Below are positions 53,275 through 61,411 of a stretch of DNA of 64,000 bases, one piece after another. A program made the position numbers and the translations under genes. The stretch comes from Leptolinea sp. HRD-7 (GTDB taxonomy: Bacteria; Chloroflexota; Anaerolineae; Anaerolineales; Anaerolineaceae): positions 2,140,001 through 2,204,000 of the forward strand of contig AP024710.1 in NCBI GenBank assembly GCA_024363285.1, in the 5' to 3' direction. The notes under the pieces are model-generated. The model worked only from the letters and a program-made list of their open reading frames with translations, did no database searches and was not told where the DNA came from. Every line of letters starts with the position of its first letter. The stretch's first letter is position 1.

Positions 53275-53321
53275 TGGACAATCCAACGAATTGTTGTAAA
53301 ATATTATTCAAAAAAATGAAT
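53275..53321 (+). promoter_or_regulatory. Promoter and operator of the arsenic regulator
   Basis: -35 TGGACA (53275-53280), 16-bp spacer, -10 TAAAAT (53297-53302), predicted start near 53309, so the message would have almost no leader. ATTCA (53306-53310) and TGAAT (53317-53321) form a dyad across the start codon, a sensible place for ArsR autorepression. Confidence 0.6.
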
Positions 53322-53678
53322 ATTATAGACAAACCTTCCACCAGTGCATTGGAAACACTTTTTAAAGCAATTTCTCATCCAGCCCGGTTGGCTATTTTGG
53401 AAGAATTGCGTAAAGGGGAATTTTGCGTGTGTCACCTTGAAGCATTACTGGGATTCCGCCAGGCGTACGTTAGCCAGCAATTGGCGGTGCTGCGCGATGC
53501 CGGACTGATCATTGACCGGCGTGAAGGATGGAATGTTTATTACCGGGTGGTTGACCCGCGTGTTTATGAATTATTCGACATAGCTTATGCCATAACCGGT
53601 ACGCAACCTGCGGATAATAAACCGGTAAAAGGGTGTTCCTGCCATTATTGCAATAAAGGAAAAGAGAGTACGTGTTGA
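53316..53678 (+). CDS. arsR: ArsR-family arsenic-responsive repressor
   Basis: 120 residues. Winged helix (about 10-90) with the metalloid-sensing CVC motif (C37 and C39) in ECVCHL-type context (FCVCHLE), as in arsenite-sensing ArsR. A second cysteine cluster CSCHYC lies at 107-112. Family knowledge: arsenite binding releases DNA and derepresses efflux. No Shine-Dalgarno precedes the ATG and the predicted leader is only a few nt, so translation may be leaderless. Followed after 72 bp by acr3. The dyad TTCAA-ATC-TTGAA (53686-53698) in that gap may be a further site. Confidence 0.92.
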   Translation: MNIIDKPSTSALETLFKAISHPARLAILEELRKGEFCVCHLEALLGFRQAYVSQQLAVLRDAGLIIDRREGWNVYYRVVDPRVYELFDIAYAITGTQPADNKPVKGCSCHYCNKGKESTC

Positions 53679-53750
53679 TCGCACGTTCAAATCTTGAAAC
53701 GAATTAGTTCTGATATCCTGTAAAACCTATATTTATGCGGAGGAAAAGAA

Positions 53751-54800
53751 ATGAAAGAAGCTCCAACAAAGAAATTGTCATTTATCGACCAATATCTTAC
53801 TTTGTGGATTTTTCTTGCCATGGCCATTGGTGTTTTACTTGGCTACTTGATACCCGGGTTTGAAATATTTATTAATCAATTTCAAGTCGGCACCACAAAC
53901 ATCCCCATTGCCATTGGATTAATCCTCATGATGTATCCACCGCTGGCAAAGGTTCATTATGATGAACTGGGAGATGTTTTTCGTAATTGGAAGATACTGG
54001 GACTTTCATTGGTTCAGAACTGGATTATTGGCCCGATCTTGATGTTCATTCTGGCGATAATTTTTTTGCGCGGATACCCGGAATACATGACAGGTTTGAT
54101 CATGATCGGTCTGGCGCGTTGCATTGCCATGGTAATTGTGTGGAATGAGCTGGCAAAAGGTGACACGGAATATGCCGCTGGACTGGTAGCTTTCAATTCT
54201 ATCTTTCAGGTTCTTTTTTACAGCGTTTATGCTTATGTCTTCATTACCGTTTTGCCCACCTGGCTTGGAATGGAAGGTGTGGCGGTCAATGTAACCATCG
54301 GTGAAATTGCCCGTAGTGTTTTTATTTACCTGGGAATTCCGTTCATCGCCGGTTTCCTGACCCGCCTGTTTCTGGTCAAGGCTAAAGGAAAAGACTGGTA
54401 TTACAGCAAATTCATTCCTAAGATCAGTCCGTTGACGTTGATCGCGCTATTGTTCACGATTGTCGTCATGTTCGGTCTGAAGGGAAATTTGATCGTCACG
54501 ATCCCAATGGATGTTGTGCGGATTGCCATTCCGTTGTTGATCTACTTCCTGGCGATGTTTTTTGTGAGTTTCCTGATGGGAAAAACCCTGGGAGCCGATT
54601 ACAAAAAAACAACCACACTTTCTTTTACGGCAGCCAGCAATAACTTTGAACTGGCAATCGCTGTGGCTGTCGCCGTTTTTGGTATCAATTCCGGCCAGGC
54701 ATTCACTGCGGTGATCGGACCGCTGGTCGAAGTTCCGGTTATGATTGGCCTTGTAAATGTAGCTTTTTGGCTAAAGAAGAAATGGTTCCCGGCGGAATAA
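53751..54800 (+). CDS. acr3: Arsenite efflux permease ACR3
   Basis: 349 residues with ten predicted helices; ACR3 family hallmarks are the conserved cysteine C124 in [13 protein letters not shown], and a C-terminal [16 protein letters not shown] stretch. It extrudes arsenite using the membrane potential. GGAGG lies upstream. The gene is 72 bp after arsR and ends at a terminator shared with the convergent arsC. Confidence 0.95.
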
Positions 54801-54810
54801 AGGACCGGGT

Positions 54811-54851
54811 AAGAAAACAGGAGTGGCTTTACCAGTCACTCCTGTTTTCTT
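54811..54851. terminator. Bidirectional terminator between acr3 and arsC
   Basis: Perfect 15-bp stem (AAGAAAACAGGAGTG at 54811-54825 with 54837-54851), 11-nt loop. The A/T-rich outer ends give T-runs on both strands, suitable for the two convergent genes. Confidence 0.88.
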
Positions 54852-55285
54852 TATTTGCTCAGAGAACCGTACCAATCCGTTACTTTTTCTTGTATTTCAT
54901 CTCGTATGGTACGAAAGGCGTTCAGTTTTTCTTCTTCTGAACCTTCTACGGCGGCCGGGTCGTCAAACGGCCAATGAAGCCGCTGTCCCACTCCGGGAAA
55001 GATCGGACACCGTTCTTCCGCCCGGCTGCATACAGTAATCACATACCCGAAATGTAACTTGCCAAGGAATTCAGTCAATCCTTTTGCCTGAGCTTTTGAC
55101 CAATCTATTCCTATTTCACTCAATACTTTAATGGTGAAAGGATTTACTGTTGACGGTTCATGTCCGGCACTATAAACGTCAAATTTGCTGCCGCCTATAT
55201 TTTTGAGGATGGCCTCTGCCATTTGACTTCGGGCAGAATTGCCCGTACAGATAAAAAGAACGCGGGGTTTTTGAATTTGGTCCAT
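54851..55285 (-). CDS. arsC: Arsenate reductase, thioredoxin-coupled (LMW phosphatase fold)
   Basis: 144 residues. P-loop C13-TGNSA-R19 and redox cysteines C86 and C93 (VCSRAEERCP), matching the three-cysteine mechanism of Staphylococcus aureus ArsC (C10, C82, C89). It reduces arsenate to arsenite for export by ACR3. The gene converges on acr3 with its stop at the shared terminator. Upstream the dyad TGAAT-TTT-ATTCA (55343-55355) could be an ArsR site. Confidence 0.95.
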   Translation of the reverse strand: MDQIQKPRVLFICTGNSARSQMAEAILKNIGGSKFDVYSAGHEPSTVNPFTIKVLSEIGIDWSKAQAKGLTEFLGKLHFGYVITVCSRAEERCPIFPGVGQRLHWPFDDPAAVEGSEEEKLNAFRTIRDEIQEKVTDWYGSLSK

Positions 55286-55614
55286 AGCTTGAATAATACC
55301 GAAAATGGATTAATAAACGATTTTCAGATTGTTAAGAAATCGTGAATTTTATTCATCGTGACCTTACTTATTGATTGTTGCGTTTCTTTTTAAACATTTT
55401 TCAAATTTATACAATTTATATAATCTAATTATCACAAAAATGGTAAGATATATTTCATGATCTTTATAAAAACTGAAAAAGGTTTTACAAAGATTTTGCA
55501 CTATATACAGCATATTCGAAGGAGAAGCGGATATAGTACTTTGATAGCTGACATTTCAGTAGATATCTGTATCCGGTGTTTCAGGTTCTCTCAACAAATT
55601 CTATGAGGCTTAAG
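55286..55614. other. Divergent region between arsC and the first B12-binding regulator
   Basis: AT-rich, 329 bp, no gene. It holds TGAAT-TTT-ATTCA (55343-55355) on the arsC side and TATACAA (55408-55414) and TATATACAG (55502-55510) on the regulator side; the last two resemble the CTATACAA sites before the second regulator. Confidence 0.45.
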
Positions 55615-56601
55615 ATGACATCAACATTCGCTGAAGATATTTCCGATGATCCAAAATACACCATTAAGTCTGTATGTGACCAGACTGGAATATTGCCTGT
55701 AACTTTGCGCGCCTGGGAACGCCGACATGAGGTATTAAACCCTCAACGTGGAGATAACCGATACCGTTTATATTCAGAACGCGATGTTGCCACACTACGT
55801 TGGATCAAGAATCGACTTGAATCCGGCATTTCCATCAGCAGCGCGGTGGCGGAATTACGGCAGCTTCAGAAAAATGGCGGACAGTTGGAAGCTGCACCGG
55901 TCATTCCTTTTTCAACACCCAAACCGGTGATGCCGCCTGTTCCGCCGGCTGAAATTGCGCATAAGCTTTACCTGGCTTTGATCGAACACAATGAAGAGGT
56001 GGCCAGCAAGCTGCTGCATGACGCGTATGAAATGTATGACTTGCAAACCTATATTTTGCAAACGCTCATTCCCGCGCTGGTTGAGATCGGAGAAGCCTGG
56101 GCAACCGGTGTCATTCCAGTGGCTACGGAACATTTTGCCAGTGTATACATCCGCGGCAATCTTATGACCATTTTCCAGGCTTACCCGGCGCGAACCAGCG
56201 CGCCGTTCGTACTGGTAGGCTGCGCCCCGACAGAACTGCATGAAATAGGCAGTCTGATGTTTGCTGTTATGTTGCGCAGTGTGGGTTATCGGGTGGAATA
56301 CCTGGGGCCAGATCTTCCACTGGATGATCTGGTGGATTACGCAAAATATGAACATCCGGCGATGGTAATTATGGCAGCCACATCATTGGAATCCGCCGAA
56401 TTGATCGATCACCTGCAGGAAAAACTATCTAAACTGAAGCCGGCTCCCATCCTTGGGTATGGAGGTAGTGCCTTCAACCAGCAGCCAGAATTAATTGATA
56501 GGGTCAAAGGCACATTTCTCGGATACACATTGGATTCTGCCGTAGAGACCGTTGATAGACTTTTGAAGCGGCCTGGAAAGTCAACCAGTGGAAAGAAATA
56601 A
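55615..56601 (+). CDS. CarH/LitR-like MerR regulator with B12-binding domain (1)
   Basis: 328 residues from ATG 55615 (GAGG at 55605-55608; the open frame extends upstream without a better site). MerR HTH at about 15-80 (YTIKSVCDQTGILPVTLRAWERRH). A helical domain contains the CarH signature W162-x9-E172-H173 (AWATGVIPVATEH), where the tryptophan caps adenosylcobalamin. The Rossmann B12 fold follows with E207-x-H209-xx-G212 (ELHEIG), whose histidine is the lower axial ligand. These features predict a DNA-binding tetramer that responds to light or B12, as in CarH. A paralogue is at 58271-59209. Target genes are unknown; nearby genes are candidates. Confidence 0.92.
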   Translation: MTSTFAEDISDDPKYTIKSVCDQTGILPVTLRAWERRHEVLNPQRGDNRYRLYSERDVATLRWIKNRLESGISISSAVAELRQLQKNGGQLEAAPVIPFSTPKPVMPPVPPAEIAHKLYLALIEHNEEVASKLLHDAYEMYDLQTYILQTLIPALVEIGEAWATGVIPVATEHFASVYIRGNLMTIFQAYPARTSAPFVLVGCAPTELHEIGSLMFAVMLRSVGYRVEYLGPDLPLDDLVDYAKYEHPAMVIMAATSLESAELIDHLQEKLSKLKPAPILGYGGSAFNQQPELIDRVKGTFLGYTLDSAVETVDRLLKRPGKSTSGKK

Positions 56602-56613
56602 AACTCGCTTTAG

Positions 56614-57276
56614 TTAGATTAAAATTTTTCGAGAACGTAGAATACCAACAGATACGGCATTACGAAGCAATGCCGTATTTTGTTTATCGGTTATTGAAAT
56701 CTCAAGAGAGGGCACTTTACCCTGCCATTCCGGGTATTTGTTAAGAATACAGTCCTTAATAAATTTGCTGCCATTTGTAATCATTTCATGAGACACTTCG
56801 CGGGAAGCGTCCATATCAAGATGTGTGCCTACCAGTATGTATTGAGTAGACGGGCTGCTAATTTCAAGGGCACGGTTAATCCAGAATTCAAGATCATTAA
56901 AACTGTCGAGTTCTACCAGCTTATACGATAGCAGGATTACATCGATCTGTTTGAACATGAATTGATACATTTTTATGATCTGTTCAAATGATCGACCTCC
57001 GCTAATTCCTTCGTTCTCTTTCTGTCCGGGGGGAACAAGGTATTGTTGGGTAACTTGAAATGCCTGTTCGCGTACTATCAAACGATCGACCACATAGCTG
57101 AATTCCATATTTACCGATTTGCCAATTTTCACCGGTTGACTAAATTGATCGTCCAGAACAGCCGGTAATGTTGACTTCCCAACAGCGCCATTTCCAATCG
57201 GAAGGACATATCCCGTTGCTTTCTTTACTTCCATGTATTGAATTTGAGGTTTATTTTCCGTTTCCATGTCAAACAT
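56614..57276 (-). CDS. Ras-like small GTPase (MglA-type)
   Basis: 220 residues from ATG 57276 (GGTGGA upstream); an earlier ATG at 57330 would overlap the preceding gene by 62 bp. Walker A GNGAVGKST lies near residue 28-36 and the guanine motif reads VGTHLDMD in place of NKxD, so nucleotide preference may be altered. The usual DxxG is not clear: the region contains VPPGQKENEG. Such MglA-like proteins in Chloroflexota and other bacteria are usually paired with a regulatory partner; here the CBS-domain protein directly upstream (8-bp overlap) fills that place. Function unknown. Confidence 0.78.
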   Translation of the reverse strand: MFDMETENKPQIQYMEVKKATGYVLPIGNGAVGKSTLPAVLDDQFSQPVKIGKSVNMEFSYVVDRLIVREQAFQVTQQYLVPPGQKENEGISGGRSFEQIIKMYQFMFKQIDVILLSYKLVELDSFNDLEFWINRALEISSPSTQYILVGTHLDMDASREVSHEMITNGSKFIKDCILNKYPEWQGKVPSLEISITDKQNTALLRNAVSVGILRSRKILI

Positions 57277-58078
57277 AGGTTTCCACCAATCTAGAAGGTC
57301 TGAGTGAGCGAAGCTGCAATTCATTGTCATGATAAACCGGTATTTCGCGGATTTCCTGCCCGCACTTATGTCTCACATAAAGAACATAGGACCGGCTTCC
57401 CATTTTCTCAATGATCTCTACACCCATGGATAATTGTGGATGCGACCGGACAATATCGGCTATAGTGTAGTTGACCGAACTCCCGCAGTGATCGCAAATG
57501 ACGGCAAATGAATTTATCAGTACTCTGGGTTCCTGTAATTGACGGATACCGGTAAATTTTAAAAAACGTTTAATGGCCTCCTCGTTGGTCAATGGCAACC
57601 CGGACAATCTGGTATCCACGTACTGGTTATGCAGGGTTAATAAGATCTGATTTTCCGCCACAAATAGAGACAAAATATCAATAATTCGAAATTCTCCAGT
57701 AAATTTTTGGACAATGATCGGGTCATAAACGGTATGCGAGTCTCGTTTTAAAGCTTCATGAATAGCCATACTGATCCTGGTACTTTCCGGTAAGATCAAA
57801 GGTGTTACTGAAAAACTATTCAGCATGGCTTTGATGGGTTTCCCAAGAAATAACTCCACTCCATATCGTTTCCCTGTCGTTTCAAAAAAAGTTTCTCGTG
57901 AAATCATCCCAATAATGGATGAGTTCTGGAAGATAATGACACCGGGGTTTTTCGGATTTTCTTTAAAAAGCCGCATTACTTGTTCTCCCGGTGTATTTGA
58001 TTCAATCTGGGATGATATGGAGGGTAGATCGCCCAGAGTTGAATCAAGCGAGTAAACAGTCTCTGCAAAGTTCGCCAT
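57269..58078 (-). CDS. CBS-domain protein with zinc-ribbon-like insert
   Basis: About 269 residues from ATG 58078; a TTG at 58099 is also in frame and neither has a strong ribosome site. The N-terminal 140 residues form a CBS pair (NPGVIIFQNSSIIGMISRETFF and VYDPIIVQKFTGEFRIIDIL). The C-terminal part contains CDHC and a later C (HKCGQE), perhaps a zinc site. CBS domains bind adenine nucleotides or S-adenosylmethionine, so this may be a nucleotide-sensing regulator of the GTPase, whose start lies inside its end. The pair is located between the two CarH-like genes. Confidence 0.75.
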   Translation of the reverse strand: MANFAETVYSLDSTLGDLPSISSQIESNTPGEQVMRLFKENPKNPGVIIFQNSSIIGMISRETFFETTGKRYGVELFLGKPIKAMLNSFSVTPLILPESTRISMAIHEALKRDSHTVYDPIIVQKFTGEFRIIDILSLFVAENQILLTLHNQYVDTRLSGLPLTNEEAIKRFLKFTGIRQLQEPRVLINSFAVICDHCGSSVNYTIADIVRSHPQLSMGVEIIEKMGSRSYVLYVRHKCGQEIREIPVYHDNELQLRSLRPSRLVETYV

Positions 58079-58173
58079 AATGATTTCTTGGAAAAACAAT
58101 TTGTATTAGAATACCAAATCACATCTTTCATAAGACAAAGAAGGGGTTAAGGGTTTGTAAATGGATGATTAAC

Positions 58174-58252
58174 CTATACAAACGATTCAATTTGTAGAGA
58201 AAGCTATACAATGCTTCGACAAACCCCGGTATTTACTGTTACTATTGTATAG
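58174..58252 (+). promoter_or_regulatory. Three CTATACAA-type sites before the second B12-binding regulator
   Basis: CTATACAA at 58174-58181 and 58204-58211 on the plus strand, 30 bp apart, and its reverse complement TTGTATAG at 58245-58252. The last lies 19 bp before the start codon. Repeated sites in one or both orientations are typical of CarH/LitR operators; auto-repression is inferred. Confidence 0.6.
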
Positions 58253-58270
58253 AAAGTGTATCCGTAAAAA

Positions 58271-59209
58271 ATGCAAACACTATCTGAAGACGATAAAACA
58301 AAGCCTATTTATAATATCAAAGCCATTTCAAATATGGTTGGCCTTTTGCCTGTGACATTGCGTGCCTGGGAAAGGCGTTATAACTTTCTGAATCCTGTCA
58401 GAGGTAATCAGGGGTATCGGATGTATTCCGAAAATGACCTTCAGACGTTACGCTGGGTTAAGCAGCAGATCGATTCTGGAATGAGTGTCAGTCGCGTTGT
58501 AGAGCACCTCAATGATATGCGCCAAAAAGGTCAGGATCCGGTAACAAACCACAAGAATGGTCTGTCAGAAAATTCCATGGCGTTTGACTCATTATCACGC
58601 CAGTTATTTAACGCAGTAACAAAATTTGATGCCGATTCCGCTAATGAGCTTATGCGGCGTGCATTCTCTATTTACACTGTTGACGAAGTATTAACACGTA
58701 TCGCCAAACCAACCTTAATTGAAATTGGTCTGGCATGGAAACGTGGAGAACTTCCAATAGCCTGTGAACATTTCGCCTCTCAGTTCTTCATGCAACGATT
58801 GATATCTATGTTGTCTACATCCATGCCGCCATCTCAAAAACCGGTGATCATCGCGGCAGGTGCGCCCGGCGAAGAACATCAGATCGGACTGCTGATGATT
58901 GTGGTTATGCTGCGTTGGCGAGGGTGGGATATCCGTTATCTGGGGTCAAATCTTGCATTAGAGAAATTGCCTGAAGCTCTGGCGCCTATCAATCCACGAA
59001 TGTTGCTTTTTTCAGCAACTACAGAGGAAACTGCCCGATCGGTGTTAAAGATAGAACCTGAAATGAAACGATTTGGTGACCGTCAACCGCTGCTGGTTCT
59101 AGGAGGGCAGGGTTTTACTCGAGTGAAAATACCGGCTTCATTAAAAGCCATCTGGTTGGATAACTCTCCCGACGAGACCGTTGCTGCCATCGAAAAGATG
59201 CTGACTTAA
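58271..59209 (+). CDS. CarH/LitR-like MerR regulator with B12-binding domain (2)
   Basis: 312 residues. MerR HTH at about 14-75 (YNIKAISNMVGLLPVTLRAW). CarH motifs are intact: W156-x9-E166-H167 (AWKRGELPIACEH) and E201-x-H203-xx-G206 (EEHQIG). It is a clear paralogue of the protein at 55615-56601. The upstream region holds three CTATACAA-like sites, so it probably controls itself, and possibly its neighbours. A short or absent leader is suggested because no Shine-Dalgarno is visible before the ATG. Confidence 0.92.
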   Translation: MQTLSEDDKTKPIYNIKAISNMVGLLPVTLRAWERRYNFLNPVRGNQGYRMYSENDLQTLRWVKQQIDSGMSVSRVVEHLNDMRQKGQDPVTNHKNGLSENSMAFDSLSRQLFNAVTKFDADSANELMRRAFSIYTVDEVLTRIAKPTLIEIGLAWKRGELPIACEHFASQFFMQRLISMLSTSMPPSQKPVIIAAGAPGEEHQIGLLMIVVMLRWRGWDIRYLGSNLALEKLPEALAPINPRMLLFSATTEETARSVLKIEPEMKRFGDRQPLLVLGGQGFTRVKIPASLKAIWLDNSPDETVAAIEKMLT

Positions 59210-59394: not shown

Positions 59395-61257
59395 TCAGTT
59401 GATAAATGATTCATAATCTTCTATGGTTCCATCCTGGAGACAGCAATCGATGATCTTCCGTCCAAGAGGATCCAATTCAGGGTGCAGAAAATCTTGCAGG
59501 CATTCTTTGAAAAAATTGGTGATCAGTTTGGCGCCAATATCATAAGCTTCTTCACCGACCTCAGGTTGAGTATCCACCTGAAGCATCCAGCGGGCAATGC
59601 TGCGGCCTTCGATCAACAATTGATGCATGGTGTACCCGAGAAGTGGCAGACGTGCCTTACGGATCTGTTCTGGACGGAATTTTGCGTTGCCGCGCCGGGC
59701 AAGGTATTCGCGGGCGATCCACTGCGGCATAAAGCCGACTTTCCACGCGCCAATATACTGATTGGGAATAAGCACATACGATGTGCGGGTATTTTCAACA
59801 AATTGGCGGAATAGCAGGTTTGCCTGATCCACACGGCGGCCTGTAGCGAACGGCCAGTAAGAACCAACACCCTCGCTGCTCATACCTTCTTTGTCAATAA
59901 CACTCGGGTTATCATGGCCACGTGGAGCTACCAACCTCCATAACCAGGCCAGTGATGGCGGCAGAATATGAAAGATGCCGATAATGCCGTATGTAGGGTT
60001 TTCTTTCGTGCAGGGAGGTGTTCGTACGCCCATACTGCGAATGTCCACGCTAACCGGTTCATCAACGATGCCGGGAATAATCCGCCTCGGAATAATTACG
60101 CGAGGATTCGGACAACGTTTCCCGGGGGCGTCCATTGTGTGTTCCCAAATTAACGCGCGGCTATTGGGAACCGCATCGATATTGATAAACAACAAAGGTT
60201 CCGGAGGTTCGGCTGTCAGGCGCTCGGTTTGCACATCCGTACCGTAGTGTTCAATGTGATTGACGCGCATAAACCAGGCTTTTTCGGCATCGACCACGGT
60301 TAATTTTTTGTTGTTGGATTGAATTGATGGATGGCAGAGAGCCATATCGTCGGTGACAGGGCGAATCTGACAGGTGCGTGGGATTTCAAGATGCCGGGTC
60401 TCTTTGGTGATGATATTCTCTCCAAGGAGGATACGTCCATCCATTTCTCGATGAACCTGTTCCAGCATTTCGCTTTTACCTCCGCCGCTGGCGCCTTCGT
60501 GCATGAAGGTGATGACGTTATCGTAGGGGGTGATCAACTGGGCGGTGGAGCAGTGTGTGGTCACCCAGCCTTCTTTTTCGCCCAGACTGATTAATACACC
60601 ATATACACCTTTCTTCGCGCTGGGGCCGGGATAAAGGTTGTAGGAATACAACTCATGCATCCCTTCAAGGCGGTTGTGAACAACGATCTGTTCACCATTG
60701 AAATGAGTGTGTCGGAACGGTGGAGCCACATAAATTATCATATGAGGCTGGAAATTATCGGGGATCTCGTCATACGGGATCATCCCCTGAAGCATGGCCA
60801 GCCCGAGGGCAAAGAATCCGGCATTGGCTGGCGCGATGACCAGCGCGTCAGTCCCCATGCCTTTTTGTCCGGCGATAAAACCAAATATCAATAATTGTTG
60901 GGTTTTTAACCAATTAAAAGTTTCCTGCCGGAGAGTTTCAAATTCGGTACCAAAACGAGACATGAACGTGGGCTTATCGGTGGGATTTTGGTCACCGATA
61001 ACCATACATTCTGGATCACGCCGCCGCATATACGCTTCAAGGTAATTGGCCGCCACGCCGTTGCGCACCCGGCTGACTGTGGCTTCAGTAACCCAGCCTT
61101 TGCCTTTTACTTCATAGGCGACTTCGTAGTAACTGCTACCCGGCCCGCCGCATGACAGGTCGATCAGTTGCGGAATAGTACTGGCAGCGATCACGCCTGG
61201 CGCGGCGTTTAAAATCTCAATCGCTTCTGGTGGAGGGTTATATTTACGGAACTCCAT
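59395..61257 (-). CDS. PEPCK-like protein of an uncharacterised family (DUF4914-like)
   Basis: 620 residues from ATG 61257 (AGAGGAG at 61268-61274); the open frame to 61281 would contain that site. A P-loop-like segment EGASGGGKSEM resembles the phosphate loop of ATP-type PEP carboxykinases. Other conserved-looking blocks are ISLGEKEGWVTTHCSTAQ and DVDIRSMGVRTPPC-type VDIRSMGVRTPPCTK. I believe this is the DUF4914 family, a PEPCK-like group without established activity; the assignment is from memory of the pattern. It stands alone on this strand, with about 185 bp of non-coding DNA beyond its stop. Confidence 0.7.
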   Translation of the reverse strand: MEFRKYNPPPEAIEILNAAPGVIAASTIPQLIDLSCGGPGSSYYEVAYEVKGKGWVTEATVSRVRNGVAANYLEAYMRRRDPECMVIGDQNPTDKPTFMSRFGTEFETLRQETFNWLKTQQLLIFGFIAGQKGMGTDALVIAPANAGFFALGLAMLQGMIPYDEIPDNFQPHMIIYVAPPFRHTHFNGEQIVVHNRLEGMHELYSYNLYPGPSAKKGVYGVLISLGEKEGWVTTHCSTAQLITPYDNVITFMHEGASGGGKSEMLEQVHREMDGRILLGENIITKETRHLEIPRTCQIRPVTDDMALCHPSIQSNNKKLTVVDAEKAWFMRVNHIEHYGTDVQTERLTAEPPEPLLFINIDAVPNSRALIWEHTMDAPGKRCPNPRVIIPRRIIPGIVDEPVSVDIRSMGVRTPPCTKENPTYGIIGIFHILPPSLAWLWRLVAPRGHDNPSVIDKEGMSSEGVGSYWPFATGRRVDQANLLFRQFVENTRTSYVLIPNQYIGAWKVGFMPQWIAREYLARRGNAKFRPEQIRKARLPLLGYTMHQLLIEGRSIARWMLQVDTQPEVGEEAYDIGAKLITNFFKECLQDFLHPELDPLGRKIIDCCLQDGTIEDYESFIN

Positions 61258-61411
61258 TGTGTAGAATCTCCTCTGGTTCACACCGGCAGTTAAATTAATG
61301 CATTATAGTACGTATCAGTTTTTTTTAGAAAATTTTAATCAAAATTTGGACTATGCAACCCGGGCTTCTGAGTTTCGTATGTTGTTTAAAAATAAGATAA
61401 AGGAGTCCATA

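Follow-up and report, generated by a model that had tools for sequence, protein, structure and literature searches.

The stretch of DNA analysed here, called the window, comprises 64,000 nucleotides of Leptolinea sp. HRD-7 (contig AP024710.1, positions 2,140,001 to 2,204,000). It carries two genes for CarH-type repressors, carH1 and carH2, with genes for a small GTPase and a partner protein between them. We consider it probable that this pair is the remainder of a tandem CarH1-CarH2 arrangement that usually lies beside a carotenoid operon, that CarH2 represses itself through an 11-bp direct repeat, and that the carotenoid target has been lost in the genus. In the proposed mechanism, CarH2 would bind the repeat over its own -35 box and thereby repress itself. 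The protein on the DNA would be the adenosylcobalamin (AdoCbl)-bound form, and repression would be lifted by loss of AdoCbl or by light breakage of the Co-C bond. The site separates divergent genes, so the partner and GTPase genes may be damped as well. The features of the region are as follows.

55408 to 55414, forward strand: single TATACAA upstream of carH1; TATAAT, not a second repeat, lies 11 bp away
55615 to 56601, forward strand: CarH1, predicted repressor with MerR helix-turn-helix, four-helix B12-binding_2 and B12-binding (Rossmann) domains; equivalent of Thermus thermophilus His132 is Ala
56614 to 57330, reverse strand: Ras-like small GTPase (Pfam Ras, 1.2e-9); the true start may lie inside the reading frame
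57269 to 58078, reverse strand: partner protein; N-terminal half also found in a GGDEF-HD protein encoded by this genome; paired Cys in the C-terminal half
58175 to 58181, forward strand: isolated TATACAA, not conserved in a four-genus alignment
58194 to 58199, forward strand: degenerate upstream repeat TGTAGA, a possible third repeat in 11-bp register that departs from TnnACA at one position; the four-genus alignment does not conserve it
58205 to 58222, forward strand: putative operator, 11-bp direct repeat TATACAATGCTTCGACAA (TnnACA n5 TnnACA), conserved in G001, G023 (Levilinea) and G027
58216 to 58245, forward strand: predicted sigma-70-type carH2 promoter (TCGACA, 18 nt, TACTAT), a consensus match only; the second operator repeat forms its -35
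58245 to 58251, reverse strand: isolated TATACAA without conservation across the four genera aligned
58271 to 59209, forward strand: CarH2, predicted architecture as CarH1; equivalent of His132 is Lys

Domains, pocket and orthology of the CarH pair

Both open reading frames (ORFs) match MerR_1, B12-binding_2 and B12-binding in a Pfam search, and T. thermophilus CarH is the best solved relative of both proteins in the PDB (E about 1e-28 to 1e-30). The start codon of CarH1 was set by the orthologs at loci L053 and L054. Both translations contain the adenosyl-capping W-x9-EH (WATGVIPVATEH and WKRGELPIACEH) and ExHxxG (ELHEIG and EEHQIG), the latter holding the lower-axial His. The original prediction had named two CarH-like regulators that keep these signatures, and the domains, the nearest structure and the alignment bear it out. 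Thermus residue numbers were taken from PMC9304148, PMC8156234, PMC10442372, PMC9758184 and PMC11796333 and were placed on the family alignment by this analysis. Pocket positions G128, W131, E141, H142, H177 and G180 are retained in CarH1 and CarH2; at position 132, CarH1 has Ala and CarH2 has Lys, and the other pocket positions examined are kept. For the SignatureFinder light signature (GxxW, EH, GxxH, GxxxP), in which the placement of GxxxP on the alignment is inferred, CarH1 has GEAW, EH and GPDLP but TELH, and CarH2 has GLAW, EH and GEEH but GSNLA. The NCBIfam CarH model is the best NCBIfam match for both proteins (142 and 148 bits); these scores are below its equivalog cut-off of 400 bits, so the proteins are named CarH-type and not equivalogs of the named CarH. 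Judging by domains and pocket, both genes encode CarH-type repressors with a MerR helix-turn-helix and two B12-binding domains, and we infer that both proteins bind AdoCbl and repress transcription.

The pair resembles Thermus CarH (PDB 3whp, 5c8d) in domain order, in W-x9-EH, in the lower-ligand His, and in an 11-bp direct-repeat operator with one repeat over the -35. It differs in having Lys and Ala for His132, in the presence of two paralogs close together, and in the lack of carotenoid genes in the window. The Thermus operator has three repeats, whereas the window operator has two clear ones. Myxococcus CarH and CarA are likewise two related MerR/B12-domain repressors encoded in tandem, but one of them is B12-independent and both regulate carotenoid genes, according to PMC9304148.

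Orthologs of the pair occur elsewhere in the family, which includes Levilinea (G023). A CarH2 search of 121 genomes, the window's own included, gave a match at E <= 0.001 in 103. Forty neighbourhoods were fetched and, with the window, make 41 loci; by ORF clustering, 21 of these hold two CarH genes, 18 hold one, and two (L056 and L061, excluded from counts) hold none. In a tree of 60 proteins, all 21 pair loci contribute one protein to the CarH1 clade and one to the CarH2 clade, with support of 100/98 for CarH2 and 100/100 for CarH1. On this tree, the window genes are orthologs of the family's tandem CarH1-CarH2 pair. Carotenoid-type genes (BLAST clusters 1, 2 or 7, named from one representative each as crtI, phytoene/squalene synthase and crtD-like) occur within the stretches fetched for 15 of the 21 pair loci, mostly just downstream. 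The pair loci without them are the window, G001, G038, G070, G037 and G020, and the stretches from G038 and G020 are short. In Levilinea and other Anaerolineaceae (L034, L035, L031), the orthologs have the same order and strand and the same carH2 operator, but crtI and phytoene-synthase genes lie downstream there, and in the window the GTPase and partner genes separate the carH genes. In the one open-access library and the listings searched, no listed paper dealt with CarH in Anaerolineae or with a CarH-peroxiredoxin regulon.

Operator and promoter of carH2

CarH operators consist of 11-bp direct repeats (nnnnTnnACAn), one of which overlaps the -35 in Thermus (PMC9304148). Upstream of carH2, the repeat reads TATACA(n5)TCGACA (58205-58221), with halves starting at 58205 and 58216. 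The four-genus alignment keeps TATACAA....T.GACAA and little besides. In the 335 bp upstream of each of 60 CarH genes, TnnACA-n5-TnnACA occurs 30 times in 25 regions compared to 0.7 expected from Markov shuffles; at the other spacings between 6 and 23, counts range from 0 to 5. In seven of 22 CarH2-side genes, including that of the window, the second repeat serves as a -35, and a -10-like hexamer lies 17-18 nt downstream. Promoter-like matches in the carH2 upstream region are not above shuffles, and the promoter prediction is weak alone. Autorepression by CarH2 is well supported from sequence, because the repeat overlaps the predicted -35, is conserved in other genera, and has a strongly preferred 11-bp spacing.

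The CTATACAA motif occurs at 58174, 58204 and 58245 (reverse strand), and TATACAA occurs at 55408, where they had been placed before. Four copies of CTATACAA are present in the window (1.08 expected; four reached in 1 of 100 shuffles), and three of the four lie within one intergenic region, upstream of carH2. TATACAA is unremarkable (seven copies, 5.63 expected). Of these copies, only that at 58205 is shared with other genera, where it forms the first half of the 11-bp repeat. For this reason, and because its partner 11 bp downstream is TCGACA, an operator made of CTATACAA pairs 30 or 41 bp apart was rejected. Thus, the proposal that a CarH-type site precedes carH2 stands in kind, and its detail changes from CTATACAA pairs to one 11-bp repeat over the predicted -35. 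A three-repeat operator was also rejected; a pattern search found none in the genome.

Loss of the carotenoid target and other candidate targets

The window genome (G000, 3.79 Mb) and three congeners (G001, G002, G003) contain no match to phytoene/squalene synthase (PF00494), which is present in 30 of 61 genomes overall. By this marker, carotenoid genes as a target, which do not define all CarH members, were not recognised in G000 to G003. The earlier observation that carotenoid genes are not nearby holds, and for phytoene synthase there was no match anywhere in the searched genome or in the three congeners; the same observation for photolyase holds locally and fails genome-wide, as a photolyase is present at G000:C1 ~273-274 kb. 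Among 37 family genomes, CarH2 and strong PF00494 (E < 1e-60) occur together in eight, CarH2 alone in four, PF00494 alone in one, and neither in 24 (Fisher p = 1e-4, uncorrected for kinship). With any PF00494 match, the counts are 9, 3, 5 and 20 (p = 0.002, also uncorrected for kinship). One of eight CarH1-only genomes has PF00494.

Members of the genus differ in what remains of the locus. In G002 and G003, CarH1, the GTPase and the partner are present and no CarH2 is seen beside them; in G001, both CarH genes are retained and the partner gene was not detected. Between G000 and G001, CarH1 has an identity of 0.79 and CarH2 one of 0.58. A second genome pair (G060 and G070) has identities of 0.82 and 0.62, and its congeners G010 and G044 hold CarH1 alone. 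CarH1 and CarH2 divergence is similar in G023/G052, G055/G033 and G007/G014, and CarH1 differs more in G069/G022. The picture suggested by these comparisons, with few lineages behind it, is that the carotenoid target was lost and that drift and loss of CarH2 followed. CarH1 would have stayed constrained and CarH2 would be drifting; two sister species have CarH1 with no CarH2 next to it.

Other targets were sought with the repeat pattern. The strict two-repeat pattern has three matches in the window genome compared to two for the control, at carH2, a ferritin gene, and a selenocysteine peroxiredoxin-like gene. A looser pattern gives 12, 13, 6 and 12 matches in the genus compared to 11, 6, 6 and 12 for the reversed-pattern control, which is no consistent excess. 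A genome-wide regulon defined by pattern was rejected, as there is no excess for the genus as a whole beyond G001. Ferritin was rejected as a target because the site is absent from the G001 and G003 orthologs. Photolyase was also rejected; no repeat is near it in the fetched G000, G001 and G002 stretches, the lone G000 repeat is ~4 kb away, and a G003 repeat is ~7 kb away.

The peroxiredoxin-like gene (G000:C1 ~552.6-553.1 kb, L089:7603-8079; also L125:5520-5993) has a conserved in-frame TGA (FNRTFT-U-PFCQ) and a CarH-type repeat upstream. Its nearest NCBIfam model is SelL-related, and the match is below the cut-off of that model. The site TTTACAAATATTATACAA is identical in G000 and G001, and a repeat is found in five of 20 orthologous upstream regions compared to 0.12 expected, two of the five being pattern hits that led there. 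In G022, a peroxiredoxin-like gene is downstream of hydrolase genes.

A protein of ~250 residues, apparently a membrane protein (G000:C1:867020-867748, L278; L238:3566-4321; L218:2669-3445), has CarH-type repeats upstream in some relatives, and its gene is divergent from a CarH gene in G045. Five of 30 upstream regions have the repeat (eight occurrences, 0.18 expected), and the pattern itself had led to two of these five. It is not claimed as a target in this species, as the copy in the window genome has no repeat. Two members tested have no Pfam or NCBIfam match, and one has no PDB match; a suspected likeness to TspO found no support in these databases.

Across 76 relatives, the strict pattern has 58 matches compared to 19 for the control. 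By CarH status, there are 40 compared to 11 in 37 CarH-positive genomes, 3 compared to 1 in four intermediate genomes, and 15 compared to 7 in 35 CarH-negative genomes (no CarH match at E < 1e-12). Neighbour groups were drawn from 55 strict sites (52 of the 58 with flanks and three in loci already fetched). Recurrent neighbours are an alpha/beta-hydrolase gene (four genomes), the ~250-residue protein (four), fasciclin (two) and sigma factors (two). Genome G006 (L207, L208) is 99% complete, has no CarH detected, and has two 11-bp CarH-type repeats, one of them before an alpha/beta-hydrolase gene. CarH-negative sites, especially those in G006, count against CarH as the only reader of the repeats; another regulator may read them.

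An earlier description of the two genes between the regulators as a GTPase/CBS pair is upheld for the GTPase by its Pfam match and finds no support for CBS: the partner protein matches nothing in Pfam at E <= 1 and, with a five-sequence profile, nothing in the PDB better than E 1.4. Its single-sequence fold prediction was unusable (pLDDT, a confidence score, of 34). The two genes adjoin CarH1 in three of four genus members; in the fourth, G001, no partner gene was detected. They do not always accompany the CarH pair. The N-terminal region of the GGDEF-HD protein (G000:C1:631447-631899, L090:7394-9070) is ~40% related to the partner protein and forms an unnamed sensor-like domain. Just upstream of carH1 (53316-55285) are an ArsR-type regulator, an SBF-family transporter, and a low-molecular-weight phosphatase/arsenate-reductase-like gene; ArsR-like and transporter homologs are also upstream of carH1 in G001 and G003. 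A full-length DUF4914 protein (59395-61281, reverse strand, 1049 bits) adjoins carH2, and it has homologs near CarH1 in G002 and G003.

Residue 132 and the signal read by the pair

In Thermus CarH, His132 couples photolysis to tetramer release, and the final bis-His state requires oxygen. The H132A variant is an AdoCbl-bound tetramer in the dark and is mostly still tetrameric after light (PMC10442372). The same position is Arg in CtMerR, Gln in SasPcob and Tyr in AbDPcob, and CtMerR loses its adenosyl group in light with no monomerisation under the anaerobic conditions used (PMC11796333). CtMerR and the photocobilins resemble the window pair in having an AdoCbl pocket with no His132 equivalent, but they have Arg, Gln and Tyr where the window pair has Lys and Ala. 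His occupies this position in 18 of 21 CarH2 orthologs; the window has Lys, and G001 and G012 have Gln, the G012 gene with crt genes adjoining. CarH1 orthologs have Tyr or Phe in 26 of 35, His in four, Gln in one and Ala in four, and all four with Ala belong to the window's genus. AdoCbl is probably available to the organism because a B12-binding domain protein adjoins MeaB in the window genome. An Rfam search of the window found neither a cobalamin riboswitch nor any other family.

Several results weigh against a self-repressing remnant of a light-responsive carotenoid regulator. The upper-ligand His132 is absent from both proteins, although this trait is typical of Thermus CarH and not of all photoreceptors, and the H132A behaviour described above points the same way. 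Scores are below the NCBIfam cut-off. In the window, no 11-bp pair is found upstream of carH1, only the single TATACAA, and the three-repeat operator of Thermus is absent from the genome. Two-repeat sites are not in genome-wide excess in G000 (12 compared to 11 for the reversed-pattern control). In G002 and G003, where CarH2 is not beside CarH1, there is no 11-bp repeat upstream of the partner gene. The CarH2-crtB association statistic ignores relatedness, and G000 has an estimated contamination of 5.5%.

The original prediction left the signal as B12 itself or light. The substitution of residue 132 in CarH1 and CarH2 alike lends some support to the B12 part, and light may still be the signal, as published photoreceptors have Arg, Gln or Tyr there. 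B12 status is a real alternative to light. If loss of residue 132 means that the pair mainly reports AdoCbl availability, the apo form would release DNA, the holo form would repress, and light would be minor. This is somewhat unlikely in our view. It accords with Lys and Ala at positions where most orthologs have His or Tyr/Phe, with Lys and Gln in the two CarH2 proteins of the genus and Ala in its four CarH1 proteins, and with the H132A variant. However, residue 132 varies widely in the family with no known loss of light response (Gln in G012 CarH2 beside crt genes, Tyr in most CarH1), no B12-uptake or synthesis gene is linked to an operator, and the window has no cobalamin riboswitch. A genuine light switch that works with no bis-His state, like CtMerR, and now acts on a small oxidative-stress set such as the peroxiredoxin-like gene instead of carotenoids is a possibility that we take seriously without favouring it. 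The intact pocket motifs, the residues of CtMerR, SasPcob and AbDPcob, the identical TTTACAAATATTATACAA and repeated upstream sites of the peroxiredoxin-like gene (with two discovery hits among the five), and the position of this gene just past a CarH gene, divergent, in G085 are consistent with it. On the other hand, the peroxiredoxin-like site includes a TATAAT -10 box able to mimic half a repeat, most genomes' orthologs have no repeat, the ferritin site is not conserved, and none was found at photolyase. A B12-independent repressor that keeps its pocket unused, comparable to the CarA paralogue beside CarH in Myxococcus (PMC9304148), would also fit the changed residue 132, but every other pocket residue tested is retained in both proteins, which makes it improbable.

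Two further explanations concern what the repeats and CarH2 are for. CarH2 may be a decaying relic with no target left except itself. The lower identity of CarH2 in G000/G001 and G060/G070 and its absence beside CarH1 in G002, G003, G010 and G044 agree with this; its reading frame, pocket and operator are nevertheless intact in G000 and G001, and some other genome pairs lack the contrast with CarH1, and we regard a relic as rather doubtful. Ownership of the 11-bp repeats by another MerR-type regulator, with CarH merely in the same neighbourhood, would explain the 15 strict sites in genomes with no CarH match, including the two in G006, but the 40 sites in CarH-positive genomes, the strong enrichment upstream of CarH genes themselves, and the match to the published CarH consensus (PMC9304148) make it improbable. 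Alongside the favoured account of a remnant pair with a self-repressing CarH2, we put forward with low confidence that the pair has been retuned. Because both paralogs lost the light-coupling residue, the old light switch would read AdoCbl or redox state and guard a small peroxide-defence set headed by the selenocysteine peroxiredoxin-like gene. Because the same operator also precedes alpha/beta-hydrolase, ~250-residue protein and fasciclin genes, the family pattern would suggest a B12-dependent stress regulon, undescribed in these Chloroflexota.

Overall, the family appears ordinary and its state here informative: a CarH pair has probably outlasted the carotenoid genes, its operator can be identified, and the residue that couples light to DNA release has changed naturally. 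Two CarH paralogs with an AdoCbl pocket, no switch residue, and no recognisable phytoene synthase in the genome provide a natural test of residue 132. The operator prediction is open to check by a single gel shift. The sites described here also point to candidate targets of CarH other than carotenoid genes, in a group that is large, mostly anaerobic and little studied.

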